From Elusimicrobiota bacterium (GTDB taxonomy: Bacteria; Elusimicrobiota; Elusimicrobia; UBA1565), in the NCBI GenBank assembly GCA_016218495.1, contig JACRDU010000043.1:1-35876 (forward strand): DNA of 35,876 nt, given 5' to 3'. Positions 6,106 to 35,876 of the stretch are shown here, in pieces (position 1 is the first letter of the stretch; each line of letters begins with the position of its first letter). The notes beneath the pieces are model-generated. The model saw only the letters and a list, made by a program, of their open reading frames with translations, ran no database searches and was not told where the DNA came from. A program made the translations under genes and the position numbers.

Positions 6106-6602
6106 GCCGCCTTGCCCCGCAGCTCGCCGGCCGCCAGCAGGGCCTTGAGCAGATAGTGGGCGGCGAGCAGGGCGAAGCCCGCGGGCAGGATGGCCTGGAA
6201 CCACCAGGCCGGGACATGCAGGCTCCCCGCCGAGAACAGGACGGAGGCGGCGGCCTTCTCGGAGGCGAAGAAGGTCCATGAGGCCCGGACCATCAGGACG
6301 CAGACCGCCGCCGTCAGCGCGTGCAGGAGCAGGCCGACGCCGGCGCGGACCCGCTCGGACATCAGGCGCAGCGCGGCGTCCATGGCGAACTGCTTGTCGT
6401 CGGCGGCCGCCAGCGCCGCCCCCAGGAAGCCGGTCCAGAGGACGAGGTGCCTCAGGAACGTGTCGGCCCAGAGCAGGCCGAGGGAGACCCCCCGCAGCAG
6501 GACCTGGGCGAAGCTCAAGGAGACCATGACGAGGAGCAGGAAGGCCAGCAGGCCCTGCTCCAGCGCGGCCAGGCGCCGCTCGGCCTCTTTGAGGAACGCC
6601 AC
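6102..6602 (-). CDS. dctQ: TRAP transporter small permease subunit (DctQ type)
   Basis: A 166-residue membrane protein with four hydrophobic segments (about residues 15-38, 50-68, 85-108 and 128-155), as expected for DctQ, which bridges the binding protein and DctM. The start is GTG at 6602. Its first base is the last base of the dctP TAG stop (TAGTG), so the genes are coupled. The segment LWADTFLRHLVLWTGFLGAA is typical of DctQ proteins. It sits between dctP and dctM in a standard TRAP order. Confidence 0.9.
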   Translation of the reverse strand: MAFLKEAERRLAALEQGLLAFLLLVMVSLSFAQVLLRGVSLGLLWADTFLRHLVLWTGFLGAALAAADDKQFAMDAALRLMSERVRAGVGLLLHALTAAVCVLMVRASWTFFASEKAAASVLFSAGSLHVPAWWFQAILPAGFALLAAHYLLKALLAAGELRGKAA

Positions 6603-18700: not shown

Positions 18701-18853
18701 ACGGGCTTCCTCCTCTTCGGCGGGAGGCTCGTAATGGCGCTCCTTGCGCGTGCGCGACAGGCGCGCGGCGGAAGCCGCCGCCTCGAGAGCGAGGCCGGCG
18801 GCGAGCGCCGCAGCGAGGGTCCGCAATGCCCGTGCCTTCATCCTTGCCGCCAT
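15791..18853 (-). CDS. Exported giant TPR-repeat protein
   Basis: A 1,020-residue protein: signal peptide (about 1-30), a charged Glu/Lys/Pro linker (about 35-65), then back-to-back tetratricopeptide repeats to the C-terminus, roughly two dozen units. Clear examples end in the ALxLDPxx consensus, such as FTKAVEVDPGDPESLLDLG and KALQLDPDRGWAYIQRGLAY. It has no catalytic motif and is probably a periplasmic protein-interaction scaffold. The start is open: an in-frame ATG at 18841 gives an equally good signal peptide and overlaps the stop of a 9-codon upstream frame (18867-18838) as ATGA. Neither start has a ribosome binding site. It is separated from metF by 35 nt. Confidence 0.9.
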   Translation of the reverse strand: MAARMKARALRTLAAALAAGLALEAAASAARLSRTRKERHYEPPAEEEEARPEPKKEKSKKRLKGREAAAESYDAALTAYRLGDFAAAGAVLNDAIDADDGFMPAWALRAQVRGAAGDTEGMLRDIVKPLRGSRSEPAFRRARADAKTLAGRPAEAVKDYDAALDKDSDDPEAYLGRGRARRSLGDLDGAIDDFQRAVKERPDHLTARIHLARAYADADKVPQAVRELTRVLNGNRDFSMAYEVLASVLASQGDERAFPAWSRAIQLSPENSRPRVGRALMYLKKGNKTLAEKDFVEAIRLAPKDFAPLYNRGESWCRLGNKEGCVADFKAALALDVPDAEAAAAMGDRLAENEQLDDALAMYSKGLAAALADPRMGSKALAAMVLTRRAAVFVRMNESRKALADHNAAVSAAPDDPGVWLARAELSAKLGDPRRAVADFDKALTLKPDHARALLGRGTLLAEAGKAEEAAADFTAAIKADTQLGAAYARRGRLAAAAGAWDEALKDFTKAVEVDPGDPESLLDLGVARLRRREFWKAIAALDRSLKQGGPAAPARAARAEARAALGMTSQALIDLDEALKADPKSSELYTLAGFVELKLRAYPEAIRALDRAVALDRKNSRAFRLRGLAHAGRGELAEASNDMHKAVDLAPRPVGELVDLCHVERLRGRTSRAVDACSKALQLDPDRGWAYIQRGLAYLAGGDASRAARDLDDGSRLEPPRPQALLARSIAHAALRQYKESDRAYREAVGIDPMVKSADITLGEDPGPAWDFRARIDALSGLIEKDADDPYSFLVRGNALHNAALYDQAILEYTRALESDGRLTAGYLARGAALAAQDSLDAAEQDFRRAVSLSPKDPLAHLNLVTLLTARRKYGDGLKTAIDALKAQADSPYAESYVKAGNLRYFLREVERAQENYDYAIKFSPNHASAHNGLGLTYFARKAYEKALESFSRAIELMPDHDRYYRNRASTFVNMGQFENAVSDYKLALSVNRDPTMVEEYQRLIEASQARVGSQASSK

Positions 18854-18867
18854 GGTAGCTGACCCAT
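18838..18867 (-). CDS. Possible leaderless 9-residue leader peptide
   Basis: The frame encodes MGQLPWRQG and stops with TGA overlapping the ATG at 18841 of the giant TPR gene. A TATAAAAT stretch (18882-18875) ends 7 nt before its ATG, the spacing expected if transcription starts at the start codon. It could couple translation of the TPR gene. It is short and may be chance. Confidence 0.3.
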   Translation of the reverse strand: MGQLPWRQG

Positions 18868-18874
18868 GTTAAGG

Positions 18875-18882
18875 ATTTTATA
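18875..18882 (-). promoter_or_regulatory. Candidate -10 box of the giant TPR gene
   Basis: The minus strand reads TATAAAAT, a rare A/T run in this DNA, just upstream of the TPR gene and directly after the end of the aldo/keto reductase gene. The -35 is not clear; a TTGACC lies too close (3 nt upstream) to pair with it. Confidence 0.4.
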
Positions 18883-18887
18883 CCCGG

Positions 18888-19889
18888 TCAACGGTAGAAG
18901 TTCCTGTTCCAGGCATGGGCGGCGAGCTCGGCCAGCAGGTCGCCGGGCAGCAGGCGGCCGTCGGCCGCCCGTGCGTTCGCGGCGGCGTGCTCGGCGGTGC
19001 GCATCCCCGGGATGACGGTGGCGACGTCCCGGAAGCTCAGGCAGAAGCGCAGGGCCGCTTCCGCCAGCCCGGCCGCGTGCGCCGGGACGAGCAGGCTCTT
19101 GAGGGCGGAGGCCCGCCGGCAGGTCTCGGCCAGGCGGTCCCCTCCGAAATAATAGCCGCGGAAGTCCTCGGCGGTGAACCTGGTGTCGGGGGTGAGCTGT
19201 CCGGTCAGCCCCCCCTCGTCGAACGGGCAGCGCACGATGACGCCGACCCCCTTCGCGCGGCAGGCGGGCAGGAGGCGGGCCAGCGGCCTCTGGTCGAAGA
19301 GGTTGAAGATGACCTGGACGGCGTCGACCACCCCCGCCTCCACGGCTCCCAGCGCCGAGTCCGGGTCGTCCGAGTTCACCGAGAGCCCGACGAAGCGGAC
19401 CTTCCCTTCGCGGCGGAGCTCGGAGAAGACGGCCAGCGTCTCGGGCCACAGCGGGTCGCTGAGCCAGCGGTCGTTCCAGACATGGAACATCAGCAGGTCG
19501 ATGGCGTCGCGCCGGAGGTTGCGCAGGGAGCGCTCGGCGTTGGAGCGAACCCAGTCGGCGGGGAAGGTATGGGCCAACCGGGTGTGCTGGTGGGCCGGCC
19601 ATTCCATGTTCTTGGGGGGCACCTTCGTCCCGACGACGGCCTTCGCGCCGGACTCGCGCAGCGCCGCGGCGATGAGCCGCTCGCTGTGCCCGTGGCCGTA
19701 CACGGCGGCCGTATCGAAGTAATCGACGCCGTGCTCGATGGCCGCGCGCAGGGCGCGCAGGGATTCCTCGTCTTCGGTCCGGCCCCACATCGACTTCCCG
19801 ATGCCCCAGCCCCCGAAGCCGATTTCGGAGACTTTGATCCCGGAGCGGCCCAGAGTGCGGCTCGGCATCGAGGAGACGGGAGGGGTCAT
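18888..19889 (-). CDS. Aldo/keto reductase
   Basis: A 333-residue NADPH-dependent oxidoreductase of the AKR superfamily (TIM barrel). The catalytic tetrad is complete: Asp59 and Tyr64 (YFDTAAVYGHGHSE), Lys89 (VVGTKVPP) and His136 (LLMFHVWND). GKVRFVGLSVNSDD and the late ATVIPGMRTAEHAAAN match the family's cofactor-binding end. It resembles the YajO/Tas-like bacterial subgroup, and the substrate cannot be named. Its ATG overlaps the stop of the ClpS-like gene (ATGA), so both are made from one mRNA. Confidence 0.93.
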   Translation of the reverse strand: MTPPVSSMPSRTLGRSGIKVSEIGFGGWGIGKSMWGRTEDEESLRALRAAIEHGVDYFDTAAVYGHGHSERLIAAALRESGAKAVVGTKVPPKNMEWPAHQHTRLAHTFPADWVRSNAERSLRNLRRDAIDLLMFHVWNDRWLSDPLWPETLAVFSELRREGKVRFVGLSVNSDDPDSALGAVEAGVVDAVQVIFNLFDQRPLARLLPACRAKGVGVIVRCPFDEGGLTGQLTPDTRFTAEDFRGYYFGGDRLAETCRRASALKSLLVPAHAAGLAEAALRFCLSFRDVATVIPGMRTAEHAAANARAADGRLLPGDLLAELAAHAWNRNFYR

Positions 19890-20301: not shown

Positions 20302-22599
20302 ATGGCGCGGCTGATGAAAACCCTGACCGGAACGGCCCTTCTCGGGGCGGCTTTGACCCTGGCGCCCATCGGCGCCCAGGCCGGCCTTCTCGGGAGGATT
20401 TTCGGGGGCGGCGGCTCCTCCGGCGGAAAATCCGATTCAGGCGGCAAGGGTTCGGGCGGCGGCGGGGGTGAAAGCAAGGGCGGCGGCCACGGCGGCGGCA
20501 TCGGTTCCGGGGCCATCCTCGGCGCCATCATCGGAGGCATCGCCTCGATGAAGAACGGCGGGTCCTTCTCCGAAGGCGCCAAGGCCGGAGCGAAGGCGGC
20601 CGGCGATTCCGGCTGGGAGGACGACAGGAAGGACGCCGCCCGGGCCGGGGCCGCGGCGGCGCAGGGCGGCGGCCCCTCGCAGGGCGGCGGAAAACCGGAC
20701 TACGGCCAATCCCAGGGGAAACCCTATGACGGCGGTCCCTCCTATGTGCAGGGCCATGAAGGCCAGGTCGGCCTAGCCGTCAATCCGAACGGCCTGACCC
20801 CGGCCCAGGCCGCGGCGCTGTTGGCCGGCGGGGGCGGGCCCGGCGCGAGTGAGCCTGGCGCGCCGGGGACCGGGATAAAGGAGCCCCCGCCCCTCAGGAT
20901 GGAGAACCCGCTCGACGACAACAATTTCCTGAAGGGCGACGGCGGCCCCGGCGCCGTGAAGCGCCCGGAAGGCCCGGCCTTCATCATCGGTTCGGGCACT
21001 CCCGCCCCCCCCTCTTGGCTGGCCCGTCTCGACCCGCCCAAGCAGTACGAAATCCGCGTCCCCGAGCTGCCTCCGGGCCGCGAGTACAAGGGCGGCCAGA
21101 CCACCGCCGACGCGATGGCCGCGCACCAGAAGCTGGGGCTCGACGCGGTCGCCTCGGTCCAAGGGCTCAACATCAACGCCGGGGAGATGCGTTTCCCGGA
21201 TTCCAAGGGCCACCCCGAAGGCGCGCGGCGCCTGGCTTCGGGCCGCTACGCCGACATGCGCGACGGCGCGCAGGCGCTGCGGGCGACCTTGAGCTCGGGC
21301 GAATCCCGCTACGGCCTCAAGGACTACAAGGGCGCCCTGGCCGAGGCGGAGTCGGCCATCGAGCTGGCGCCGGGCGACCCCAACGGCTACCTGCTCTACG
21401 CCAAGACGCTCAACAAGCTGGGGATGCACGCCAAGGCCGAGGAGGCGGCGCGCCAGGCCGAGGCGCTGGCCTCGGGCGACGAGATGAAGTCCCGCGCGCT
21501 GCTCGAGAAGGCGCAGGCCCAGCTCTTCATGGGCAGGACCAACGACGCCATGGCCAGCACGGCGCAGGCCATCTCCCTGGCCCAGAGGGCCGGCAACGGG
21601 GTCCTGGAGGCCAACGGCCTCTATCTGCAGGCGGCCGCCTGTCAACTCAAAGGGGACCGCGGCTGCATGATCGCCGCGCTGGAACGGGCCGCGCTGCTCG
21701 ATTCCAAGTACTACGAGGCGCTGAACGCGGCCCGGGCGGGCAAGGACATCTTCGACCCCAAGGACACCGAGAGCCTGGGCCTGCTCGACCAGGTCGGCAC
21801 CGACGGCATCCCCATCGCCGGAGGGATGGCCACGGTCTGGGCCGTCATGGTGTCCCTCGTCGCCGCGCTGGCCGGCGCCGCCGGCTGGGCCTGGAGGCGT
21901 TCGCGCCGCGCCCCCCCCAAGCCGACCATCGCCGAGGCGCTGGGCGTGGCCGACAACGGCCTGCTGGCCGGGAAGTACGCGCTCGGCCTGGCGGTGCCCA
22001 GCGGCGGGCGCGGGGAGATGTGGGAGGCCAAGGACCAGTCCCTCGGGCGCTCGGCCCAGGTGCTGAAGCTCGCCTCTGGGTCGGCGGCCGACGACGCGCG
22101 CCGCCTGGCCTCCGTCCACCATCCCGGAGTCGTGGACGTCTTCGAGGTCATCGAGGGGCCGCGCGGCACCTTCCTGGTCCACGAGTTCCTCAAGGGCCGC
22201 TCGCTGCGCCAGGTCCTGGCGGCCAAGGGCCCCATGCGCATCGACGAGGCGTGCCGGATGCTCCGGCCCGTCTGCGAGGCGCTCGAATACGCGCGCGCGC
22301 AGGGCGTGGTCTGCGGCGGGCTCGAGCTCATCCATGTGATGCTCACCGACGACGGCTATGTGAAGCTCGTCGACCTGCCGGTTGCGCGCGCGGAGCAGCT
22401 GGGCCGCAGCGACGTCCAGGCCGTGGCCGAATGCCTGGGCGAGCTGCTGACCGGGGAGCCGCCTCGGCCCGGCAAGGCGCCGGCGGTCGGGGCCGGCGCG
22501 GCGGCCCTCATCGCCGACGCGTCCTCCGGGGCGATTCCGGGGCCGGCCGCCCTGGCGCAGCGCCTCACCCAGCTGGCCGACGCCGTCGCCGTGGGTTAG
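20302..22599 (+). CDS. Receptor-like Ser/Thr pseudokinase with periplasmic TPRs
   Basis: A 765-residue type I membrane protein. Its order is: signal peptide (1-27), a Gly/Ser-rich tract (about 34-75) with a hydrophobic GSGAILGAIIGGIASM stretch, a Pro/Gly-rich linker, TPR repeats (about 333-475), one transmembrane helix (509-531) followed by RRSRR, and a cytoplasmic protein-kinase fold from about residue 554 (LLAGKY). The nucleotide-binding Lys may remain (Lys589). The HRD motif is replaced by Cys-Gly-Gly (671-673), the catalytic-loop Lys by Glu, the Asn by His, and DFG by DLP (691-693). It should be catalytically dead. It probably regulates the two intact kinases encoded directly downstream, with which it shares LLAGKY and the KDQSLGR/VDQSLGR motif. 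Start ATG 20302 has a good GGAGG site. Confidence 0.88.
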   Translation: MARLMKTLTGTALLGAALTLAPIGAQAGLLGRIFGGGGSSGGKSDSGGKGSGGGGGESKGGGHGGGIGSGAILGAIIGGIASMKNGGSFSEGAKAGAKAAGDSGWEDDRKDAARAGAAAAQGGGPSQGGGKPDYGQSQGKPYDGGPSYVQGHEGQVGLAVNPNGLTPAQAAALLAGGGGPGASEPGAPGTGIKEPPPLRMENPLDDNNFLKGDGGPGAVKRPEGPAFIIGSGTPAPPSWLARLDPPKQYEIRVPELPPGREYKGGQTTADAMAAHQKLGLDAVASVQGLNINAGEMRFPDSKGHPEGARRLASGRYADMRDGAQALRATLSSGESRYGLKDYKGALAEAESAIELAPGDPNGYLLYAKTLNKLGMHAKAEEAARQAEALASGDEMKSRALLEKAQAQLFMGRTNDAMASTAQAISLAQRAGNGVLEANGLYLQAAACQLKGDRGCMIAALERAALLDSKYYEALNAARAGKDIFDPKDTESLGLLDQVGTDGIPIAGGMATVWAVMVSLVAALAGAAGWAWRRSRRAPPKPTIAEALGVADNGLLAGKYALGLAVPSGGRGEMWEAKDQSLGRSAQVLKLASGSAADDARRLASVHHPGVVDVFEVIEGPRGTFLVHEFLKGRSLRQVLAAKGPMRIDEACRMLRPVCEALEYARAQGVVCGGLELIHVMLTDDGYVKLVDLPVARAEQLGRSDVQAVAECLGELLTGEPPRPGKAPAVGAGAAALIADASSGAIPGPAALAQRLTQLADAVAVG

Positions 22600-22605
22600 A
22601 GCGCG

Positions 22606-24213
22606 GTGCGGGTCGCCCCTCCCCTGCTCCTGCTGCTCTGTTGCGGCCCCTGGGCGAACGCCCAGGGCGGCGCGCTGACCGAGGATCAGAAGCGGGCCCT
22701 GCTCTCCATCGACTCCGCCGTCGACGCCATGCGCAGGCAGGACTATGCGGGCGCGCTCCAGGCGGCCGACGCGTCTTTGGCGGCCTTCCCGGAGAACGCC
22801 CGCGCGTACAACCTGAAGGCCCACGCGCTCAACCGGATGGGCCGCTACGACGAATCCGCGACGGCGGCCGAGGCCTCCCTCGAACAGAACGCGCAGAACC
22901 CCGAGGCTCTGCGCCAGCTCGCCTTCGCCCGGTTCTGTCTCGGGGATTACCCGACGGCGGAGCTGATGGCGGGCCGGGCGGTGCAGAGCGACCCGCGCAA
23001 CGCCGAGTCCTGGGGGCTGCGCGGCATCTCCCGCCAGGCCCGGGGAGACTCGGGCGGCGCGGCGGAGGATTTCGACAGGACCGGCCAGATAAACCCCGGA
23101 GCCGCGGACCGCTACCGGACGCTCGCCAAGTCGGGGCGTTCGGGCCTGTGCATGTCCGCGGGCGCGGGGCCGGGCTTCCTCGACGCCTGGCGCGAGCGGC
23201 TGGGGGGCGCGGGCCTCGCCGCCGCCGGGATGGCGCTGCTCCTCGTCGTGGGGTTCCTCGGCGCGGTCGGATACGGAGCGCTACAGAGGCCCGTCGAAGC
23301 GGCCCGTCCCCCCCCCAAGCCGGCGGCGGAGCCCGTGGAGCTCGACGGCCTGCTCGCCGGCAAGTACCGCCGGACGCGCATCATAGGCCGCGGCGGGATG
23401 GGCGAGGTCTGGGAGGCCGTGGACCAGTCCCTGGGCCGCTTGGTCGCCATCAAGAACATGTCGGCCGAGGTCGGGGCGATGGGGGAGGCCGGCAGGGACT
23501 TCTACCTCAAAGAGGCTCGGACGGTGGCCGGCCTGCACCACCCCGCCATCATCGGCATCTACGCCGTGCTCGACCTCCCGTCCGGGCTCTACCTCGTCTT
23601 CGAGTTGGCCAAAGGCAAGACGGTCCAGCACCTCCTCGCCGAGGCGCGCCGCATCCCCCTCGGCAACGCGGCGCGGCTCCTCAAGCCCGTCTGCGACGCC
23701 CTGGATTTCGCCCATGCGCGGGGGGTCGTGCACCGCGACCTCAAGCCGGCGAACATCATGGTCACCGAGCAAGGCTTCGTCAAGGTCATGGACTTCGGCA
23801 TCGCCCGCCGCATCGATGAGAAGGTCGACCCGGCGCTCGGGCAGGAGGCCGCCAAGCGCGACGCCCGCGGGCTCCTGCTCGACCATACCCAGACCATCGT
23901 CGGCACGCCGAGCTACATGGCGCCCGAGGCGGAGTCGGGAGTGGTCACCCCGGTGTCGGACCTCTATTCGTTGGGCGTGTGCCTCTACGAGATGGTCACG
24001 GGGCGCCTGCCTTTCCCTATGGAAGCCACGGCCGAGCTGAAGGCCCGCAAGGGCTACGCGAAGCCTTCGGCAGAGGTCCCGGGCCTCCCCCCGGCCTTCG
24101 ACGCCTTCATCGACGAGTGCCTGGACCCGGACCCCCAGACGCGCCTGTCCACGGCCAAAGAGTTCTCCCGGAGGCTCGACGCCTTCCTCGGCGGCGGGCA
24201 GGGGCCCGCGTGA
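22606..24213 (+). CDS. Receptor-like Ser/Thr protein kinase with periplasmic TPRs
   Basis: A 535-residue type I membrane kinase, GTG start 6 nt after the previous stop. Signal peptide (1-19, ending ANAQ), three or four TPR units (about 25-165), a transmembrane helix (about 203-224), then a complete Hanks-type kinase domain (246-530). The glycine loop is GRGGMGEVWEA (261-271), the ATP Lys is Lys283 (VAIK), the catalytic loop is HRDLKPAN (376-383), the metal Asp is in DFG (396-398), and GTPSYMAPE and SDLYSLGV follow. All key residues are intact. The sensor is N-terminal and exported, opposite to PknB, where the kinase comes first. It likely reads a periplasmic protein partner and phosphorylates cytoplasmic targets. 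Confidence 0.93.
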   Translation: MRVAPPLLLLLCCGPWANAQGGALTEDQKRALLSIDSAVDAMRRQDYAGALQAADASLAAFPENARAYNLKAHALNRMGRYDESATAAEASLEQNAQNPEALRQLAFARFCLGDYPTAELMAGRAVQSDPRNAESWGLRGISRQARGDSGGAAEDFDRTGQINPGAADRYRTLAKSGRSGLCMSAGAGPGFLDAWRERLGGAGLAAAGMALLLVVGFLGAVGYGALQRPVEAARPPPKPAAEPVELDGLLAGKYRRTRIIGRGGMGEVWEAVDQSLGRLVAIKNMSAEVGAMGEAGRDFYLKEARTVAGLHHPAIIGIYAVLDLPSGLYLVFELAKGKTVQHLLAEARRIPLGNAARLLKPVCDALDFAHARGVVHRDLKPANIMVTEQGFVKVMDFGIARRIDEKVDPALGQEAAKRDARGLLLDHTQTIVGTPSYMAPEAESGVVTPVSDLYSLGVCLYEMVTGRLPFPMEATAELKARKGYAKPSAEVPGLPPAFDAFIDECLDPDPQTRLSTAKEFSRRLDAFLGGGQGPA

Positions 24214-25811
24214 AGCCCGCCGGCCTGGCCCTGTCCGCCCTCCTCCTCTGCTCCGGCGCCTGGGCCCAGCCGGTGGACCAGGCCAAGGACGCGGACAAGC
24301 GCGTGTCGGAAGCCCGCGCGGCGCTGCTCAAGGAGCGTCGCCAGTTCGAGTCGGCCGAGGCCAGGCTCGAATCGGCGCGGCGCGCGGCGGCACCCGACGC
24401 CGTGCGCGACGCCGAGGTCGACCTCTTGGACGAGAAGGCGGATTTCGCGAAGGCGGCCGCGGTCTACAAGCGCGCCGAAGAACGCTATCAGAGCCTGCGC
24501 GGCGGCGTGCCGTTCGACCCCGAGCTCTTCGTCGTGGCCTGCGAGGCGGCGCGGTCGGCGGCCCCGGCGGCGGAGACCGGGCCCGCCGAAGCCGCGCCCG
24601 CCGCCGCGCAGCCTTCCAATGTGGACCTCAGCGCGCTAAGCGCCCCCCAAGCCCGAGCCGAAGAATCCGCGGCGTCGTTCGACGCCCACTCCGGGGCCGG
24701 CTCCCTCGCGGAGGCCCCGTCGCCCCCCGCCGGGGCGGCCGCCCAGACGCCGTCCGCCCGGCCGCGCCCGGCCGCGACGGCGCGCCAAGGCCCCGAGCCG
24801 CGCACGGTCGCGGTGGGCTCCGGGGCGGCCGCGCTGCTGGCGCTCGGCCTGCTCCCCTTCTGGCGCCGCCTCAACCTCCAAGACGTCGATGTGCTCGTCG
24901 TCGGCACGCATCGCGCCCAGCGCAGGGCGGCGGTGCCCGACATCTTGGCCGAGGCGGAGAAGGCCGGCCTGCTGGCCGGCAAGTACGAGCTGCGCGGCGT
25001 CATCGGGCGCGGCGGCATGGCCAAGGTGTGGCAGGCCCACGACCGCAGCACGGGGCGCGAGGTGGCCGTGAAGAAGGTCGCACTCCCCGAGGGGCCGCGC
25101 GCCGAGCAGCGCCGCAACCTGGCCCTGCTCGAGGCGCGCACGCTGACCACCCTCCGGCATCCGAACATCGTCGACATCTTCGAGGTCGTCGACAACCCCG
25201 CGGGGCTCTTCCTCGTCTTCGAGTTCCTGCACGGCAAGACCCTCCAGCAGATCCTGGCCGAGGAACGCACGGTGACGCTCGAGCGCCTCAGCACCATCCT
25301 CCGGCCGTCCTGCGCGGCGCTGGAGTTCGCCCACTCCCGGGGTTTCGTGCATCGGGATTTCAAACCTTCCAACGTCATGGTGCTGACGACGGGCGCCGTA
25401 AAGGTCATGGACTTCGGCATCGCCCGGGCCCTCTCCGAAGGGGACCAGGCCGAGGACCTGGTCGGAGTCGACCCCGCGGCCGCGGAGGGACGCGGCATGC
25501 AGCTGGCGCGCACCAGCAACCTCGTCGGTACTCCGGGCTATCGCCCTCCGGAGGCGGAGAAGGGCATCGTCAGCACGGCCTTCGACGTCTACTCCATGGG
25601 GGCGGTGACCTACGAAGCCCTGGTTGGAGAGCTGCCCCCCCGCCCCGGCCCCGGGTCGCTGGAGCGCGTCTGGCTCAGGCTCAAGGAGCGGGCTCCGGGC
25701 ATTCCCCAGCAGGCGGGCCGAGCCATCCAGGCCGCCTTGGACCCCGACTATACGAAGCGTCCCGCCAGCATACAATACTTCCGGTGCCAGGCCTTAGAGT
25801 TTAAGTCCTAG
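24210..25811 (+). CDS. Receptor-like Ser/Thr protein kinase with periplasmic coiled coil
   Basis: A 533-residue protein whose GTG start overlaps the previous TGA (GTGA), with an AGGGG site 6 nt upstream. Signal peptide (1-19, GAWAQ), a helical, probably coiled-coil segment (about 22-105), an Ala/Pro-rich linker, a transmembrane helix (about 200-217), then the kinase domain from LLAGKY (254-259). The glycine loop is GRGGMAKVWQA, ATP Lys288 lies in VAVKK, the catalytic loop is HRDFKPSN (381-388) and DFG is at 401-403. The activation segment ends GTPGYRPPE, with PPE where APE is usual. An extra acidic insert lies between DFG and GTP. It should be active. Unlike its neighbours it has a short coiled-coil sensor in place of clear TPRs. 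Confidence 0.92.
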   Translation: MKPAGLALSALLLCSGAWAQPVDQAKDADKRVSEARAALLKERRQFESAEARLESARRAAAPDAVRDAEVDLLDEKADFAKAAAVYKRAEERYQSLRGGVPFDPELFVVACEAARSAAPAAETGPAEAAPAAAQPSNVDLSALSAPQARAEESAASFDAHSGAGSLAEAPSPPAGAAAQTPSARPRPAATARQGPEPRTVAVGSGAAALLALGLLPFWRRLNLQDVDVLVVGTHRAQRRAAVPDILAEAEKAGLLAGKYELRGVIGRGGMAKVWQAHDRSTGREVAVKKVALPEGPRAEQRRNLALLEARTLTTLRHPNIVDIFEVVDNPAGLFLVFEFLHGKTLQQILAEERTVTLERLSTILRPSCAALEFAHSRGFVHRDFKPSNVMVLTTGAVKVMDFGIARALSEGDQAEDLVGVDPAAAEGRGMQLARTSNLVGTPGYRPPEAEKGIVSTAFDVYSMGAVTYEALVGELPPRPGPGSLERVWLRLKERAPGIPQQAGRAIQAALDPDYTKRPASIQYFRCQALEFKS

Positions 25812-25897: not shown

Positions 25898-28800
25898 GTG
25901 GCCCCCCGTTCCGGACCGGGGTGCCTACGCCGAATGGACCCGAAAGGCCCCAAGCTCCGCGTCTTCCTCGCCGCCGGCCTCCTGCTCGTCCCGCAGGCTT
26001 CCCCCTTCGCCCAGACCCTGCGTGCCCGCAATCTCGGGACGCGCCCGCCCTTGGCCGCCCCGCTGGCGGTCGTCGGTTCCCCCGCCGCGGCCTTCGACGG
26101 TTTCCGCTCCGCCATCCCGGCCCCGCGGGCTCTGAAGGCGGCCCCCGCCCTGCCTCCCGGCGCTCCGGTGGGCCATGCCGCGCTGCTGACATATGAGGAC
26201 GCGGCGCGCGAGGCCGCGGGACGCGGCGCCGAAGGGGAAGCCCGGCAGTGGAGCCAGCTCTCGGGGCTGCGCGCCGCCTGGTCGGCCGATTCCGGACCGG
26301 AGCGCGAGGCGGCCGGCCAGGCGGCGGCCCGCATCGCCGGGCTGCTGCGCCGGGGACTCTACGGCGAGGTCTCCCGCGGGCTCGACGCGGCCGCGGAGCC
26401 GCCGGTCGAAGTCCGGCGCCGCCAGTCCGGCGCGCTCGTCCTCCTCGGCCCCGCCGTCGGCGCCGATGGCGCGCTCCGGGGCTGGGTCCGCGAGAATCTG
26501 GAACCCGAAGCGCGGCGCCGCGACGACGCCCGCAAGGCCCTGGCCGCCCTGCGCATCCTGTTGGGACGCTCGGTCGACCTCGACGAAGAGTCCGCGCGGA
26601 CCGAGGCGCTGGAAGCGGCAGAGCAGGCCCAGGGCGTCCTGGCGCGGCGCGGCACCCCGGCCAAGTCCGCGGCCGCCGTCGCCGTCGCGCACCCCGCCGC
26701 CTTCGCCGCGGCCGCCCCCATGGCCTCGGAGGCGGCACTTCCTCGCGATAGCGCTCGGTCGCCCACCTCGTCCATCGACGCGGAGTTCTCCTCGGCCCGT
26801 TCGCTCGCCGACCACTACGCGGCCCGCGTGGCGCTGGCCCGGCGCGGCCTCGACGCCGCGGCGGGACCGGCTTGGGACGGCGCGGTCCGCAAGGAGCTCG
26901 AGGACGGCCTCTCGCGCGACCTCGAGGCCCTGCGCGAGGCCCGCGACCGCCTCTACCTTCTGGGGAAGCTCTCCCAGCGCAGCGCTCTCGGCGGAGCCGG
27001 CGCCTCGGCCGAAGCGGACGCCGTCCTCGAGCTGGCGCGCCGCTACGACGCCGTCCTCGGCTCGCGGGGCGGCTCCCCGCTGTTCGTCGAAGACGGCGAG
27101 GCCGAGAGCGCCGCGGCCGAGGCGCTGCGGCGCAGGCTCTCCGAGCTGCTCGCCGCGGAACGCCGGCCCGAGCCTCCTTCCGACGCGCCGATGGCCGGCA
27201 CCCCCCTGGAACGCTCCGTCACCGAGCGCCTGGACCGCCTCGCCCAGCTCGAGGCCCGCGCCCAGGCCGAGCTGGCGCAGCGCGACGCGGCCGGGCAGAT
27301 GCTGGCCCTGGCCGACCGCCTGCGCGGCGGGGCCCTGCGGGAGCGCCGCGCCGGGCGCGAGCAACTGGAATTCCGCAAGAACTTCTCGCGGCTGGCCATG
27401 GTGATGGACCTGTCCTACAGCCTCAACGTCATCACCGCCGCCGAGAAGGCCATCGCCGGGATGCAGGCGCTGCTCGACGAGAAGCTGACCTCGGTGGAGG
27501 AGCGCCGCCGCCTCAGCGACGCCGCGCAGGAAGCCGCCCGCCGCGCCGGCCAGAGGCGCGAGGAATGGGACAAGGCGGTGCGCGACAAGGTGGCCGCCGA
27601 CGAAGAGAACGTCGGCCTCTTCACCCGCCTGGGCGCGCAGGCCGGCCGCATCAGCGCGCGCCTGGCCCGCTACCGCGCCGATGTGAAGGGCCTGCTGGGC
27701 TTCATCGACGCGCGCGACCGCGGTCCGTCGGCTTCGGCCCTTTCCGAGTACGAGCGGCGCCTGGCCCTGCTCCCCGCGCTGCAGGAATGGCGCCGGCACG
27801 GCTACCCGTCGGGAGGAGACTCGGTCTCCAAGCTCTCGCTGGACCGCCTGCGCTCGGAGCGCGCGCGCCTGGGCGGCTACCTGGCCCAGGTGGCCGACGG
27901 CGAACAGCGCTTGGCCGACGTGCCGCTGGAGTTCGCCGGGGTCCTGGTGGTGGCGGTGCCCGGCGTGCCGTCCGTCAGCGTCTCGAACCCCGACGCCGCG
28001 ACCGCGCTCCGCATCCTCTCCGAGAGGCGGGACTTCTGGCGCGCACAGAAGGACGACTTCGCCAAGCTGCTCTCCGGGGTCGACGACCTGCTGGGCGGCG
28101 GCTCGGCGGTGGAGACCGACGACTTCGGCGACCCGGTGCCGGTCTCCGCCGTCGCCTACCGGGCCCAGGAGCGCCGCAAGCTCGACGCCGCCCGCGCCGA
28201 GGCCGAGCGCTTCGCGCGCGACCTCGACGCCGTGGCCCGCGTGCTGGCCCAGGCGGGAGCGCCCGGCCTCCCGCCGCTCTCCGGCCTCGACCCCGCCGCA
28301 CTGCGCGCGGCCCTGCCGGACTACGCCGACCGCCTGCAGGCCCTGACCCTGCCGCCGGGGGACGGCGCTACCGACGCCAAGATCGACAAGATCGACGCGG
28401 CGCGCCTGCTGCCGTTCCTCGGCGACGCCGTGGCCCGCGCCGCGGAGGCGGAGGCCAAGGTGAAGGCCTTGGACGACGCCATCGCCCGGGTGCTGCCGGC
28501 GGCGCGCACGAAGTTCGCCGCGGCCGTGGCGGGCACCGAGGCCCTGCTGGCCGATGTCTCGGCCGACGAGGGCTATGTGCGCTCGGGATTCCCCGCCGGC
28601 GCGGCCCAAGCCCTGATCGACCGCAAGAAGGCGCTGCTCTCCCGGACCCTCAAGCCCATGCTGCAGGGCCTCGACGAGCTGCTCGAAGGGACCCTGATCC
28701 CCTACCAGCTCGAGTCCATCGAGTCCGCCTCCCCCACCGCCGCCGGGGAGGGCTACGCCGTCTTGTATAAGGAAAAGAAGAACCTCTTCGAGCGCATCCG

Positions 28801-31800
28801 CAACTCCTACGAGAACACCATGCCCTGGAGCCTGGCCGCCAACGGCGCGCCGGAGGGCGACGCCGCGGCCGGGCGGGCCGGCGTCGAGGAACAGCGCCGC
28901 AGCTTCAGCGAGTACCGCCAGCTCGTGGCCGACTACCTCGACGAAATCCGCCGCCGCAAGGACCCCGCCACCCCCGGGATGGAGGAGGTCTACGGCGAGA
29001 GCATGCCCTTCTCCCTGCCGACCCGCATCGCCCAGTACCGCCAGGAGACGGTGCGCCGGGCCGGGGAGATCAACGCCATCGGCGCCGAGGTGAACGCCAT
29101 CCTGGCCGAGATCGACGGCCTGACCGGCGGGCGCCACAACCTGGCCGCGGGCTACCGCCTCCCCACCGACATCCGCGCCCCCGACGCCGGCAGCGCCGCG
29201 CGCGTCAAGGCGCTGGCCGACGCGAAGACCATCCAGAACCTGGCCTCGGTGCTGAAGTCCGTCAGCGACGCGGCGATGGCGGCCGGCTCGGACGGCGGGC
29301 TGGGCGTGGGCTCCGGCGACGGGGGCATCCCGACCGGCAGCCAGCCTTCCCCCCAGCTCTCCAACGAGCAGCGCACGGCCGTGCTGGCCCTGGATGCGGT
29401 CAAGCGCCTGGTGCCCTCGTCGTTGACGGCGGGCGGGGCCTCGCTGACCGAGGCGATGGCCCGCTACCTGTTCTCGGACGGGGTGGCGGAGGCCTCGCGG
29501 GAGTCGCTCGAGGAGCAGATTCCGGTCTTCGAGGCCTTCCTGCGCCGGGCGGAAGGGACGCTGGACGCGGTGTTCGCCGACCTGGACCAGGACGCGGCCT
29601 ACGTCGGCGGCCGCGGCGAGACGGGCGAGGCGGTGTTCTCGCGCAAGGAGCGCATCTACGCCCGGGTCCAGGAGACCGCGGCCGAGGGCGCCGCGCTCTT
29701 CGGCCAGAAGGTGGGCTGGGACAAGGGCTCCTTCGACACCGTGGCCTCCATCGCCGACTACTACGCCACGCTGGAGGAGATCTACGCGCGCTCCGACGAG
29801 GCCCTCGACGCCGAGGTCAGCGCCGCGCAGACCTACCGCGACACGCTCAAGAAGACCGCCGACGACCTGGCGGCCCAGCGCGGGCAGGTCACCGAGTGGC
29901 TGCGTCAGCTCAACGACCCGCACGAGACGGCGATGCGCCGGGTCGCCGACAACCTCTCGCGCCTGCAGGAGCGGACCCGGGCGGTGCTCGAATCGAACAT
30001 CAAGCAGCACGACGCCAAGAAGAGCTACGACGCCGCGGCGGCCGCCCTGCAAGCCACCCTGAAGGCCCTCGAGGCCGAGCGCGGCGCCCTGTCGGACGCC
30101 CTGCACGGGGTGGACCTGGGCGACCTCTCCGAAGGGGTGGCCCGGCGCGTCGAGTCCGTGGGGCTGGGCGGCTCGGCCTGGCTGGCCGCCGGGCCGCGCG
30201 GCCGCGGGGCCCTGGTCGTCAAGAAGTCGGAGTTCGCCAGCTTCCTGAGCGCGCTGTTCGGGTCCTTCGCGCCGGACGCCTCGGCCCGGGACATCGTGCG
30301 CCTGCGCACGGAGCTGCTGAAGAACCCGATGGCTCTGGCCCAGCTGCTCCCCAACTCGCGGATGCTGGAGCTGGGCGACGACCCCAACGGCTTCTACCTG
30401 GTCTACGACTCGGCCTTCTCCACCCCCCACGGCCTGGAGACCTCCAGCCAGGTGACCCTGGGCAACGTGCTGCGCCTGTGGGACTCGAACGTCAGCGTCA
30501 CCGGGCACCGCTTCGTCAGCCCCCCCTCGGCCGGCAACGCCCCGTTCGGCGACCAGGGCGTGACGGTGTCGGTGGAGAGCCTGGAGGGCGAGAACTGGGT
30601 CAACTACCTGGACGTCACCCTGCACAAGTTCATCCAGGACATCCCGTCGGACATCACCCCCTCCGGCCAGGCCCGCGAGGCGCGCATGATGGTGTTCGAC
30701 GACTTCGCGCTGATGCTCAACGGCGACAAGCTCTACTTCGGCGCGGCCGGCTTCGCCGACTTCGCGCTGACCGGCGGGAAGGACAAGCCGTACTACTACG
30801 GCGGCAACGTCAAGACCTCGATCAAGTTCACCGAGATCATGCGCCTGAACGCCGAGGAGACCCGGCTCTACGCCAAGGACCCGCGCAAGTTCCTGCAGAC
30901 CATCAACCTCGACTTCACCAAGTTCGACCCGGCGCTGGACCGCGACTTCGTGGTGGACGCCCACGGCGACGACCGCGAGTTCCGGCGCGACCGCGTCGGC
31001 GTCGGGCTCGACATCGGGCGCGCCCTCGACCAGGCGGACTCCTTCACCGTGGACTTCTTCGTCGAGCGCGTGCGCGGCACCGACGACATCCCCAACGACG
31101 CCTTCGGCGCCACCATCGTGAAGGGCATCTCCTTCGAGGTGGGCGGGGTGCCGGTGCGCACCACCCTGTCCGGGACCGGCACCATCGGCTCCCAATACGA
31201 CACCGTCTCCGCGCGCGCCTCCTTCGAGCTCCCCAACCAGGGCATCGTGCTCTCGGCGTCGGGCAAGAAGCTCGGCGACGGCGAAGCCTACCTGCTGGAG
31301 CTGCGCAAGCGCTTCGGCGACAACACCGAGGCCTACCTCTCCTACGGCAGCCCCTACCTGGGCCTCAACCGCCGCCTGACCATCGGGGCCAACACCAGCT
31401 TCACCCTGGGCCAGCTCTGGCGGGCCGTGGCCGGCCGGACCGGAGAGGACCTGATGGGCGGCCAGGCCCTGGAGGCCTTCAACAAGGACCTCGAGGAGTT
31501 CTTCAAGCGCGACGACGCCTCCAACCCGCTGGTCGCCGAGCTGGCCCGGGTGTTCGACGCCGACGTGGGCAAGCGCCTGATCTCGCTGGAGATCGGCCGC
31601 CTGTCCCGCGAGCTCGGCGAGCTGCGCCGCGCCGGGGCCTTCCTCGACAACACCCGGATGAAGGGCATGGTCGGCTTCGTGACGAACCCCGTCGGGGAGA
31701 ACACGGCGGACCGCGCGGCGGGCGGGGGCTTCCAGGTCGGCACCGAGACCGAGCTGTCCTTGACCAAGACCCAGAAGGCCCTCATACAGAGCCGGGCCGC

Positions 31801-34800
31801 CTCGCTCTACGCGGCGGGCCTGAGCCTGCAGACCCGCCTGTTGGAGCTGACCCGGCTCTGGCAGGAGTCGGTGGCCGAGCTGCTCGAGGCGCGCTGGGAG
31901 GCGGAACTGGGGCTCTTCATGGCCGCCAACGCGCCCGACGAGGTGCTGGCCAAGGAAGGCCAGGCCAAGGTGGTCGAGGCCCAGGGCCGCTACCACCAGG
32001 CCCAGCTCAAGTACAACATGCTGACCGGGCGCTCGCCCGACGCGGCCATCCCTTTCGCCGAGGCCAACCCCAACGACCTGGATTACCTCTTCCTGACCCT
32101 GGGCAAGGCGCTGGAGAAGCCGGGCCGGCTCGGACAGCTCCTGGCGCGGCTGGGGCCCTCCGGCCTCCCCTCCCAGGAGCCCGGCTTCAACCTCCTCGAC
32201 TGGGTGCCCTGGGTGGAGAAGCTGACCTTCTGGGTCGGCGCCCAGCTCCACGACATCCTGGCCAACCAGGTCCTCGGGGCCGGGGTGTCCATCCGCCTGC
32301 CCATCTACGACCCCAACGGGCCCACCCGCGACAAGGCCTTCCTCCTCGAGAGCGAGGCGGTGGCCCAGGAGATGCTGGCCTCCTACCGCGAGCTGCGGCT
32401 GCGCGCCCAGCACGAGCGCCTGCAGACCGTCTCCTACGATTCCCAGATCTCCCGGCTGGCAGCCGAGGGCCCCGTGGCCGCGGCGGCCGTGGCCGACGCC
32501 GTGCGCGCCTATCGCAACGGCCTGATGGGGCAAGACGAGCTCTGGGCCGTGTTCCGGCGCTGGCACTGGACGGTGTCGCGGCTCGTCGACGCCCGCGCCC
32601 GCGCCTCGCTGAGCGCGGCTTGGGCCCTGCTCGACGACTCGGTCGCCGCCTCCGGGCCCGAGGAGCGCGCGGCCGCCGGCGCGGCCCCGGTGCGCGGCCT
32701 CGACGAGGCGCTGGACCTGGCCGCCGGGCGCTCGGCATCTCTCGAGTCGCTGGCGCGGCGCTCGCAGGCTGCCGCCGAGCTGCTGGAGGCCGCCGGGCGG
32801 CGCGTGGAGAAGGTGGCCGTCGACGTGAACCTCGGCGTCAATGTGACGGCCGACGGCGTGGCCTGGATCCCGGCCCTGGGCCTGACCGGCTTCGGGGTCT
32901 ACCCCATCGTGTCGGTGCGCTTCAAGCCCGAGGAGCTGCGCCAGCTCGAGACGGACCGCCGCTCCGGGGAGGCGGCGCTCTACGGCCACATGCGCGGGGC
33001 ACTGGAGGCCGACCTGGCCGGACAGCTCTTCGCCTCCTATTCGGCGCTGCGCAGCGCCGACGAGGCCCTGGCCGTGCTGGAATCGGACCTCCTGCCGGCG
33101 GCCCGCCTGGCCGCCGGGTCCGGCGGCTCGGACGCTCGCCGGCGCCTGCTCGAGCTGGAGACCCGCTTCGAGGCGCTCTCCGGGGAGCGCGCCCAGCTGG
33201 CGGCCACCATCAACCACCTGCTCGGCCGCGCCCCGGCCGGCCCGGTGGAATGGGGCCAGGACTCCGAAGCCGCGCTGGCCGCGCTCAAGGCGCGCTCCTC
33301 GGCCCTTGCGGGGACCGCGGCCCGGCGCGGCGTGCTCGCCGAGCGCGTGCGCGTGGCTCGGGCCGTGGAGACCATCGTCGACAAGAACCTGCGCCTGCAG
33401 GACCTGCGCATCGAGCCGGTCTCCCTGATCGGCCGCTCGCTGGGCCGGCTCGTGGCGGCGCTCTCCGGCTCGGGGGACTCCTCTCCCGAGCTGGTGGCCC
33501 TGGCCCGCCAGCAGGTCCTCGAGGCCGAGGCCGACCAGCGCGCCTTCGAGAAGGGCCTGCTCTCCTCGCGCGCGCGGCTGGGCTACGAGCTCTTTGCCGC
33601 GCGCCGGATCTTGGCCGACCTCTCTCGGCGCGGCGACGCCGAGAGCCGGTTCCAGGCGGCCCTGCTGCGCGGCCGCCTGCTCTCCGCCGAGGCCCAGCTG
33701 GCCCTGCTCGGCGGGGCCGACGCCGGAGCCCCCGCCCCCGCGCCGTCCCCGCGGGCCTGGGGCGAGCTCGAGGAGCGCCTGGCCGCGGCGCTGCGCGCCG
33801 AGACTCCGGTGCCCGGACTGGGCGGCGGGGACGGCTATGTCCCCGAGCCGACGCGCTGGTCGGCCACGGGGGCGCTGCGCTACTTCGACGCGCGCCAGTC
33901 CATCGGGAAGGACCCCATCGGCAAGCGCTTCATCGAGGGCTGGGTCGAGGTGCGCCTGGGCAGCCGCACGACCCCCCCCGAGGCCCTGCTGGCGCTTGCC
34001 GCCCTGCCGGAGGAGCGGGCGGCGCGCATCTTCGACGCGGCCCCGGCGCGGGCGGAATCCCGGGCCAAGTCCCTGCTGGCCCGGCTGCGCCTCGACGCCG
34101 GCCTGCTGCGCTGGGCCCGGGGCGGCTCCGACGGGAGCGCGCGCGCCGCCCTGGCCGAGCGGCTGGCCGCGTCGCTGGAGGCCGGTCTGGCCGAGGTCTC
34201 GGCCCACCTGGGCCTGGGCGCCCCCCTCGGCCTCGAGGATTTCCTCGCCTTCGTCCCCCTGTCCGAGGCCGAGAGCCCGGCCGAGGCCGCCGAGGCCTTC
34301 CGCGCCCGCGTCGATGGGCTGGGCCTGGAGGCCCTGCGCCGTTCGGTCTTCAGCGAGGGCTTGCCGGCCGGGCTGGAGGGCGCGCGCGACTCGCTGAGCC
34401 AGCTCAAGGCCGACCTGGTCGCCTCGCGCATGAGCTACAAGGGCTTCACCCCGGTGGGCGCTTTCGGGCTCTTCCGCGGGCGCTGGGTGGCCGGGGCCTT
34501 CCTCGAGGCGCCGGACCCCGAGGCGGTGCGCGACACCCTGGAAGGCATCCTGGCCGACGCTCTTCGCCAGGAGCTGGAGAGCCAGGACCGGCTCAAGGAG
34601 CTCTCGCTGCGCCTGCACGGCCTGATGGCCGCCGTAGCCGACGGCTCGCGCCTGGTCGAGGCCCAGGGCCAGCGCCTGCAGGCGGCGGAAGGCAATCTGG
34701 CCGGCGTCCTGGTCCGGCTCGAGCGCGGGATGGCGTCGGCCGAGGAGGCCGCCGCGGCGCGCGCCGAGGCCGGGGCCGCCCTGGAAGCCTTCCTCGACTC

Positions 34801-35876
34801 CCTGGTCACCGTCCGCTCCGACTTCGTGCGCCTGGTCGCCGAGCTCAAGGCTTTGGGCCAGGCCAGCTTCGCCTCGGGCGGCGCGCCCACGCGGCGCATG
34901 CGCGGCGTCGAGGCGCGGGGCCGCGCCCTCGACGAGCTGGCCGCCTGGACGGCGGGCCGGATGGCCGACGCCGATTTCGCGGCGCGCCTGGCCTCCCTCT
35001 TCGATGGGCGCGGCCTGGCCTCGGGCCGCGACCTGGCCGAGCTCCAGGAGCTCTCGGGCTGGTACCGCAGGATGCTGGCCGACGCCGACGCCGTGCGCCA
35101 CCATTCGGACTTCGACCCCGCCCAGCGCCTGGACCTGCTGGTGCGCGCCGATGTGGAGGGCCGCCGCCTGCTCATCGAGCGCCGCCTTAAGGAGATGCTC
35201 TCCGGGGTGACCGGCGGGAGCGAGCCGGGCTGGGACGCCCTGCGCGCCTTCCTGCGCGCGGAGCTGGAGAAGGACGCCGCCGCCTCGGGGGCCGAGGCGG
35301 ATTCCCGCCGGGGCCTGGCCACGGAGCTGCGCCGGGCCGCCGCCGGCGCCCTGGCGCCGGCCTTGGGCGAGGCCGCCGCGGGCCTCATCACGCGCCGCTC
35401 GGCCATGGAGGCCGCCCGCGAGGCCCTGCTGGCCGGCTACCTGTCCTCGGACCAGTCCCCGGAGGACTTCCTGCTCAAGGACGCCCTGCTCGACGAGTAT
35501 CTCAAGGCCCTGACGGCCTACGACGAGACCGTCGTCGCCGCGTTCGCGTCCGAGGCCGTGCGCAAGGACCCGGCCGGGGCGCAGGCCCTCGACGGGATGT
35601 TCTCGCTCAAGGAGAGCGCCGAGCGGCGCGCCGCCTACCTGCGGCGCGGGCGCGGCCTGCTGGCCGTCGAGGCGCTGCTGGCCGTGGAGAACACCAGGCT
35701 CGAGGTGCTGAGGAAGCGGCGCTCGGGGCCCGAGGCCCTGGCGCTGGTGTCGCGCCGCATCGCCGAACTGGAGGCCACGCGTGGGCGCTGGCTGGCCCGG
35801 CCGGCCGAGGTGGACTCGGTGTCGGCCGTGCTCGACGGGCGCGGCGGCGTGGAGCGCTGGGTGACCCGTCGCGACC
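25898..35876 (+). CDS. Giant exported protein with TolC-like repeats (partial, runs off the window)
   Basis: One frame is open from here to the window end, over 3,300 residues with no stop. It may start at GTG 25898 (leaderless) or ATG 25934; residue numbers below count from the ATG. A signal peptide is present (KLRVFLAAGLLLVPQASPFA). Residues about 80-1400 are almost all Ala/Arg/Glu/Leu-rich helix, probably coiled coils. Residues about 1485-1825 are beta-rich (FYLVYDSAFSTPHG, AYLSYGSPYLGLNRRLTIG), like barrel strands. From about 1950 there are TolC-like units of paired strands with long helices: a hairpin ending LKYNMLTGRSP followed by GAGVSIRLPIYDPN near 2115; VDVNLGVNV...GVYPIVSVRFKP near 2296-2333 with a hairpin ending INHLLGRAP; and GFTPVGAFGLFRGRW near 2835. 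Typical TolC proteins have about 450 residues. It is probably periplasmic or in the outer membrane. Function is unknown. Confidence 0.85.
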   Translation, partial: MAPRSGPGCLRRMDPKGPKLRVFLAAGLLLVPQASPFAQTLRARNLGTRPPLAAPLAVVGSPAAAFDGFRSAIPAPRALKAAPALPPGAPVGHAALLTYEDAAREAAGRGAEGEARQWSQLSGLRAAWSADSGPEREAAGQAAARIAGLLRRGLYGEVSRGLDAAAEPPVEVRRRQSGALVLLGPAVGADGALRGWVRENLEPEARRRDDARKALAALRILLGRSVDLDEESARTEALEAAEQAQGVLARRGTPAKSAAAVAVAHPAAFAAAAPMASEAALPRDSARSPTSSIDAEFSSARSLADHYAARVALARRGLDAAAGPAWDGAVRKELEDGLSRDLEALREARDRLYLLGKLSQRSALGGAGASAEADAVLELARRYDAVLGSRGGSPLFVEDGEAESAAAEALRRRLSELLAAERRPEPPSDAPMAGTPLERSVTERLDRLAQLEARAQAELAQRDAAGQMLALADRLRGGALRERRAGREQLEFRKNFSRLAMVMDLSYSLNVITAAEKAIAGMQALLDEKLTSVEERRRLSDAAQEAARRAGQRREEWDKAVRDKVAADEENVGLFTRLGAQAGRISARLARYRADVKGLLGFIDARDRGPSASALSEYERRLALLPALQEWRRHGYPSGGDSVSKLSLDRLRSERARLGGYLAQVADGEQRLADVPLEFAGVLVVAVPGVPSVSVSNPDAATALRILSERRDFWRAQKDDFAKLLSGVDDLLGGGSAVETDDFGDPVPVSAVAYRAQERRKLDAARAEAERFARDLDAVARVLAQAGAPGLPPLSGLDPAALRAALPDYADRLQALTLPPGDGATDAKIDKIDAARLLPFLGDAVARAAEAEAKVKALDDAIARVLPAARTKFAAAVAGTEALLADVSADEGYVRSGFPAGAAQALIDRKKALLSRTLKPMLQGLDELLEGTLIPYQLESIESASPTAAGEGYAVLYKEKKNLFERIRNSYENTMPWSLAANGAPEGDAAAGRAGVEEQRRSFSEYRQLVADYLDEIRRRKDPATPGMEEVYGESMPFSLPTRIAQYRQETVRRAGEINAIGAEVNAILAEIDGLTGGRHNLAAGYRLPTDIRAPDAGSAARVKALADAKTIQNLASVLKSVSDAAMAAGSDGGLGVGSGDGGIPTGSQPSPQLSNEQRTAVLALDAVKRLVPSSLTAGGASLTEAMARYLFSDGVAEASRESLEEQIPVFEAFLRRAEGTLDAVFADLDQDAAYVGGRGETGEAVFSRKERIYARVQETAAEGAALFGQKVGWDKGSFDTVASIADYYATLEEIYARSDEALDAEVSAAQTYRDTLKKTADDLAAQRGQVTEWLRQLNDPHETAMRRVADNLSRLQERTRAVLESNIKQHDAKKSYDAAAAALQATLKALEAERGALSDALHGVDLGDLSEGVARRVESVGLGGSAWLAAGPRGRGALVVKKSEFASFLSALFGSFAPDASARDIVRLRTELLKNPMALAQLLPNSRMLELGDDPNGFYLVYDSAFSTPHGLETSSQVTLGNVLRLWDSNVSVTGHRFVSPPSAGNAPFGDQGVTVSVESLEGENWVNYLDVTLHKFIQDIPSDITPSGQAREARMMVFDDFALMLNGDKLYFGAAGFADFALTGGKDKPYYYGGNVKTSIKFTEIMRLNAEETRLYAKDPRKFLQTINLDFTKFDPALDRDFVVDAHGDDREFRRDRVGVGLDIGRALDQADSFTVDFFVERVRGTDDIPNDAFGATIVKGISFEVGGVPVRTTLSGTGTIGSQYDTVSARASFELPNQGIVLSASGKKLGDGEAYLLELRKRFGDNTEAYLSYGSPYLGLNRRLTIGANTSFTLGQLWRAVAGRTGEDLMGGQALEAFNKDLEEFFKRDDASNPLVAELARVFDADVGKRLISLEIGRLSRELGELRRAGAFLDNTRMKGMVGFVTNPVGENTADRAAGGGFQVGTETELSLTKTQKALIQSRAASLYAAGLSLQTRLLELTRLWQESVAELLEARWEAELGLFMAANAPDEVLAKEGQAKVVEAQGRYHQAQLKYNMLTGRSPDAAIPFAEANPNDLDYLFLTLGKALEKPGRLGQLLARLGPSGLPSQEPGFNLLDWVPWVEKLTFWVGAQLHDILANQVLGAGVSIRLPIYDPNGPTRDKAFLLESEAVAQEMLASYRELRLRAQHERLQTVSYDSQISRLAAEGPVAAAAVADAVRAYRNGLMGQDELWAVFRRWHWTVSRLVDARARASLSAAWALLDDSVAASGPEERAAAGAAPVRGLDEALDLAAGRSASLESLARRSQAAAELLEAAGRRVEKVAVDVNLGVNVTADGVAWIPALGLTGFGVYPIVSVRFKPEELRQLETDRRSGEAALYGHMRGALEADLAGQLFASYSALRSADEALAVLESDLLPAARLAAGSGGSDARRRLLELETRFEALSGERAQLAATINHLLGRAPAGPVEWGQDSEAALAALKARSSALAGTAARRGVLAERVRVARAVETIVDKNLRLQDLRIEPVSLIGRSLGRLVAALSGSGDSSPELVALARQQVLEAEADQRAFEKGLLSSRARLGYELFAARRILADLSRRGDAESRFQAALLRGRLLSAEAQLALLGGADAGAPAPAPSPRAWGELEERLAAALRAETPVPGLGGGDGYVPEPTRWSATGALRYFDARQSIGKDPIGKRFIEGWVEVRLGSRTTPPEALLALAALPEERAARIFDAAPARAESRAKSLLARLRLDAGLLRWARGGSDGSARAALAERLAASLEAGLAEVSAHLGLGAPLGLEDFLAFVPLSEAESPAEAAEAFRARVDGLGLEALRRSVFSEGLPAGLEGARDSLSQLKADLVASRMSYKGFTPVGAFGLFRGRWVAGAFLEAPDPEAVRDTLEGILADALRQELESQDRLKELSLRLHGLMAAVADGSRLVEAQGQRLQAAEGNLAGVLVRLERGMASAEEAAAARAEAGAALEAFLDSLVTVRSDFVRLVAELKALGQASFASGGAPTRRMRGVEARGRALDELAAWTAGRMADADFAARLASLFDGRGLASGRDLAELQELSGWYRRMLADADAVRHHSDFDPAQRLDLLVRADVEGRRLLIERRLKEMLSGVTGGSEPGWDALRAFLRAELEKDAAASGAEADSRRGLATELRRAAAGALAPALGEAAAGLITRRSAMEAAREALLAGYLSSDQSPEDFLLKDALLDEYLKALTAYDETVVAAFASEAVRKDPAGAQALDGMFSLKESAERRAAYLRRGRGLLAVEALLAVENTRLEVLRKRRSGPEALALVSRRIAELEATRGRWLARPAEVDSVSAVLDGRGGVERWVTRRD

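Follow-up and report, generated by a model that had tools for sequence, protein, structure and literature searches.

The window analyzed in this study, that is, the whole stretch of 35,876 nucleotides from an Elusimicrobiota bacterium, comprises the entire contig C2 of a 4.15 Mb genome (G000) distributed over 165 contigs. Open frames run along both strands for ~10 kb at its right end. On the plus strand, the listing of open reading frames gives a frame that is open from 25898 to the end of the contig; the ATG at 25934 is likely to be the start of the gene, and counted from there the window holds 3,314 residues (25934–35876) before the frame runs off the contig end. The translation, read by eye, begins with a signal-peptide-like N-terminus, MDPKGPKLRVFLAAGLLLVPQASPFAQ (25934–26014, plus strand), and the relatives start similarly. 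The GC content per codon position of this frame is 0.762/0.515/0.957. The closest relative found (L010) is 76% identical in amino-acid sequence across 1,805 codons, with 335, 261 and 640 differences at codon positions 1, 2 and 3, respectively. Judged by this codon periodicity and by the relatives, the plus-strand frame is a real coding gene, hereafter the giant gene. The minus-strand frame at 25925–35875 was rejected on the basis of the third-position GC content of the plus frame and of the better conservation of the sense translation, the antisense frame being only 56% identical to L010. This antisense frame, of ~3,300 codons, stays open along the whole giant gene because of the GC-rich codon bias.

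The 3′ end of the giant gene, which the sequence-only reading had called for, was found on contig C132 of the same genome, where the last 636 residues up to the stop codon are encoded (C132:3–1910, locus L101). When both ends are aligned to L010, ~37 residues are missing between the C2 and C132 parts. The full protein, composed of the C2 part, this gap and the C132 part, is therefore ~3,990 amino acids long, in agreement with its relatives (3,834, 3,845 and about 3,920 amino acids). In the source genome, two contigs share the gene, which is uninterrupted in the relatives; as C132 holds its 3′ end, C2 and C132 probably adjoin each other in the genome. The window gene belongs to the type I giants, which have about 3.8–4.0 kaa and a signal-peptide-like start, whereas type II giants span 4.6–5.6 kaa and have hydrophobic segments at the N-terminus; those inspected also end in a membrane helix with arginines behind it. 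The source genome has both types, type I on C2 and type II on C64. The type II paralogues on C64 (L081) and at L016 have frames of about 5,200–5,400 amino acids, with hydrophobic segments at the N-terminus and, at the C-terminus, the membrane helix and its arginine tail.

Three successive Ser/Thr-kinase-like genes, two of them with TPR matches, lie directly upstream of the giant gene on the plus strand (20302–25811), and kinase genes are also found near its relatives in L082 and L018. A large TPR protein and an aldo/keto reductase are encoded on the minus strand at 15791–19889, and TPR and reductase genes likewise adjoin the relatives in L011 and L013. The window also carries a TRAP transporter set (DctM, DctP and a TAtT component; 4834–8444, minus strand). 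Next to the giant gene there is neither a pump nor an adaptor gene, a result that covers the neighbourhood only, genome-wide adaptors being outside its scope. Linked partner genes are absent for some outer-membrane factors (OMFs). Ordinary OMF genes are located on five other contigs of the source genome; the giant gene is therefore no replacement for them.

Upstream in the chain, two helical repeats of about 300 residues each, R1 (residues 680–985; 27935–28852, plus strand) and R2 (residues 975–1300; 28820–29797, plus strand), match each other at 98% in an hhalign profile comparison (E = 2.2e-13). Neither gave a match to any known family, nor did profile comparison indicate a relationship to OMFs. 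Residues 1440–1845 (30215–31432, plus strand) are the best conserved part of the giant protein. The AlphaFold2 model of this segment contains about a dozen antiparallel strands at low confidence (pLDDT 48.5, pTM 0.40), and a Foldseek search with this weak model returned outer-membrane barrels for the most part, with E = 2.2e-3 for the best match and no match below 1e-3. On conservation and modelling, a second, separate porin-like barrel directly upstream of the region described below is likely but unproven. At the other end, a C-terminal helical region begins at 34868, extends to 35875 (plus strand) and continues on C132; its match to OMFs by hhalign is at most 1.2%.

The region between the putative porin-like barrel and the C-terminal helices is related to OMFs, the family of TolC, OprM and CusC (PF02321 OEP, TC 1.B.17). 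In single-sequence scans against the Pfam OEP family, P0001 and its relatives all remained below the cut-off (best single member, E = 0.0099), single-sequence NCBIfam scans gave no match above the cut-off and sequence searches of the PDB with P0001, A1 and A2 gave nothing meaningful. Profiles were compared by hhalign, with a 39-member alignment of the giant family and a 31-member OMF alignment including Escherichia coli TolC. The slices 1830–2250, 2030–2450 and 2230–2650 matched OMFs at 89, 95 and 90%, respectively, and the slice 2730–3150 at about 42%. With distant members added, the half-units B and C together reached 96.3% (E = 1.4e-9, 297 columns). The N-terminal helical control slices reached at most 3.5%, those with starts from 430 to 1530 giving 0.1–1.4%; after reversal or permutation of the columns, at most 2.7 and 1.2% were obtained, respectively, versus 44–94% for the same windows unaltered. 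Since each hhalign E-value refers to one comparison only, these controls weigh more than the size of the E-values. Judged by profile comparison, residues ~1880–2990 are homologous to OMFs. The sequence-only reading had suggested that this be checked slice by slice against the OEP profile; slices do match OMFs at the profile–profile level, although no single sequence reaches the OEP cut-off.

Conserved strand-pair segments recur six times along the region, and six colinear half-units, A–F, in one chain fit the data, where it had previously been read as at least three TolC-like segments at 31780–34860. That extent was about right, the region being slightly larger (about 31535–34867, plus strand throughout). 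Half-unit A (31535–32062) resembles the first half of TolC, has a strand pair at about 31655–31765 and ends in MLTGRSP; it rests on AlphaFold2 strands and helices and on hhalign matches of 37% to TolC half 1 alone and 88% for A and B together. Half-unit B (32063–32683), half-2-like with a strand pair at about 32219–32308 that includes LPIYDP, is supported by AlphaFold2 and by a match of 83% to TolC half 2, and half-unit C (32684–33253), half-1-like with a strand pair at about 32804–32923 and the end HLLGRAP, by AlphaFold2 and by 95% to TolC half 1. While A–C are clear, support is weak for the hairpins of E and F and above all for that of D. Half-unit D (33254–33733) is degenerate, consisting of a short strand, an amphipathic stretch and two long helices; its helices are confident in the AlphaFold2 model, its hairpin is not, and its position and order are conserved. 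Half-unit E (33734–34339) has a low-confidence strand pair at about 33863–33952 in the AlphaFold2 model, and E and F together match at 65%. Half-unit F (34340–34867) is half-2-like (54% to TolC half 2), with a likely tight hairpin at about 34439–34513 that is inferred from conserved sequence, no strands having been modelled. In hhalign comparisons of single units with OMFs, D and E alone gave no signal.

Compared with each other, the profiles of A and C give 87% across their ends. The motifs MLTGRSP (residue 2041, window position 32018) and HLLGRAP (residue 2440, window position 33215), which had been singled out as resembling the ends of TolC repeats, are indeed the ends of A and C and are aligned with the ends of TolC-family half-repeats by hhalign. 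In most family members, the match to the six-unit model extends over its full length, and the order A–F is kept in relatives at 27–33% identity, where single units, chiefly E, are sometimes undetected. The D hairpin is degenerate in all relatives, and in distant relatives F probably folds into a tight hairpin around an NG turn. The phases that can be read are half 1 for A and C and half 2 for B and F, which is the pattern predicted for three pseudo-protomers AB, CD and EF.

The fold of residues 1845–2995 was predicted with AlphaFold2 from a 12-row alignment, from which distant relatives and the loci of the genome search were excluded (pTM 0.64, mean pLDDT 67.7). The topology that repeats in the model is helix, strand, strand, long helix and second helix. 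Strand pairs are found at residues 1920–1956, 2108–2137 and 2303–2342 of P0001 and, at low confidence, at 2656–2685. Eight strands thus make up the modelled pairs of A, B, C and E, a single short strand is found in D and F lacks strands; the helices are confident, most hairpins are not, and, without coordinates, closure of a barrel is inferred only. The half-repeat topology of two strands, a long helix and two shorter helices is met in A, B and C, is weaker in E and is incomplete in D and F. In a Foldseek search of the PDB with this model, ranks 1–44 were all TolC-family proteins (the first 39 with E below 5e-3, 20 with E <= 0.001), with a probability of 1.00 for SilC, CusC, OprN, CmeC, TolC and VceC, and the first unrelated protein followed at rank 45 with a probability of 0.07. 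A few of these 44 matches, named only 'membrane protein from Pseudomonas aeruginosa', are OprN and OprJ. The helices of half-unit B, of 66 and 39 residues, match OprM helices H3/H7 and H4/H8, of 67 and 36 residues (PMC8277102). At the level of the predicted model, a large part of the A–F region has a TolC-type fold. Tandem TolC units in one chain, as proposed by the sequence-only reading, are supported by the profile matches and by this fold; paired strands and long helical hairpins were modelled, not only a generic coiled coil.

OMFs are described in a 2021 review as homotrimers, the protomers of which have two structural repeats (PMC8277102), with a chain length of 472±30 residues (PMC4827864). 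The giant protein resembles them in half-repeat topology, helix lengths in B, fold and profile homology; however, it has six half-repeats per chain rather than two and ~3,990 rather than 472±30 residues (PMC4827864), adds helical regions and a probable second barrel, and has no adjacent pump or adaptor genes. Because neither the protomer of two half-repeats in ~470 residues nor a single-sequence OEP match is met, it is classed not as an ordinary OMF but as an OMF-derived form that probably works like one.

The reading favoured here, held as rather probable, is a TolC-family channel in which six half-repeats in a single polypeptide replace three protomers of two repeats and close as one covalent channel; closure, oligomeric state and transport are inferred. 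Since six halves correspond to one TolC trimer, a covalent monomeric channel is the best-supported interpretation. The halves would alternate 1-2-1-2-1-2, with AB, CD and EF as the three pseudo-protomers. The giant protein would be exported by the Sec system, the hairpins of A–F would close one outer-membrane barrel with as many as 12 strands, and a periplasmic α-barrel tunnel would be built from the paired long helices. The porin-like barrel upstream may insert into the same outer membrane, and the helical regions at both termini may act as built-in adaptor or docking parts. The whole would function as an asymmetric export duct made of one covalent chain. A more far-reaching extension is possible but doubtful, namely an envelope export machine in one gene, in which the N-terminal repeats serve as the adaptor, followed by the porin-like barrel and the covalent TolC pseudo-trimer, and in which the longer type II chains, each a single polypeptide, could link the inner and outer membranes.

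The degenerate D hairpin and the weakly predicted strands of E and F would also be compatible with an OMF-derived scaffold without a channel, in which the hairpin helices form a long periplasmic stalk or surface scaffold, the barrel is incomplete and the upstream porin-like domain could be the real membrane anchor. This is unlikely, as the full OMF topology is retained in A–C and the conservation maxima coincide with the strand-pair segments, including that of F (GFTPVGAFGLF.. and NPSFVLGYFRNG.. in distant relatives). The trimeric state of all known OMFs (PMC8277102) would allow the giant chain to oligomerize, AB, CD and EF joining those of other chains to give several channels or a larger barrel. 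The six halves per chain, kept family-wide, equal the number in one full trimer, and the half-units are strongly diverged, as expected if they have fixed places in one ring; oligomerization is accordingly regarded as improbable. Only B and C are strong alone in the profile comparison, and a single genuine OMF-like protomer comprising about B–C, with A, D, E and F as unrelated helical hairpins, might be assumed. This is very improbable given the matches of A+B and E+F to OMFs and of A to C, as well as the helix–strand–strand–helix–helix pattern modelled in A and E. Finally, a generic alanine-rich coiled coil with a TolC likeness due to composition, as might be suspected for a long, helical, Ala-rich protein without single-sequence Pfam or NCBIfam matches above the cut-off, was rejected as having practically no chance, because reversed or permuted columns gave 0–2.7%, the equally helical N-terminal region gave at most 3.5% and Foldseek returned TolC-family proteins, not coiled coils.

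No natural single-chain or tandem TolC/OMF was found in the literature searched, which did not cover subscription papers and preprints. Outer-membrane porins are known to occur naturally fused in twos or threes (PMC4827864) and, like the giant protein as proposed here, these fusions hold more than one outer-membrane barrel per chain; however, they set complete porin domains side by side, whereas the giant protein would join the half-repeats of a normally trimeric channel into one. An engineered covalently linked AcrB trimer also exists (cited in PMC8277102). The idea of a trimeric efflux component as one chain is common to both, while the AcrB construct is an artificial inner-membrane pump of identical protomers and the giant protein is a natural, putative outer-membrane channel with strongly diverged units. 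If the favoured reading is true, it would show that the protomers of an OMF trimer can be joined covalently and allowed to differ from one another, which would open gating asymmetry and the binding of partners to study within a single polypeptide; the protein could also be a template for single-chain nanopores. If closed as predicted, the protein would be a natural one-piece version of the TolC export channel.

Huge proteins have been reported in Elusimicrobiota and Omnitrophota (PMC11573180, PMC12057145), those of Elusimicrobiota without COG assignment (PMC11573180). The giant family stems from the same phylum, and its longest type II paralogues (>5,000 amino acids) fall into that class; in contrast to the proteins without COG assignment, it here receives a specific proposed fold and function, which, if true, would give one of the giant protein families of Elusimicrobiota a concrete function. 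Among 84,980 species genomes scanned, ten close relatives were found, and all that are informatively labelled belong to Elusimicrobia or Elusimicrobiota MAGs, two of the ten being labelled only 'bacterium'. As the scan relies on exact matches to short peptide patterns, it picks up only close relatives, and absence from other phyla is not shown. By tblastn, no match to the giant protein was found in phages. Whole-genome searches detected the family in 51 of the 196 relatives and in 50 of the 341 genomes searched in the phylum, mostly in one order of uncultured Elusimicrobiota bacteria, with distant members (26–33% identity) in other families of the class. In one complete genome (L019, CP096137.1), the relative is split into several frames, owing either to sequencing error or to decay of the gene.
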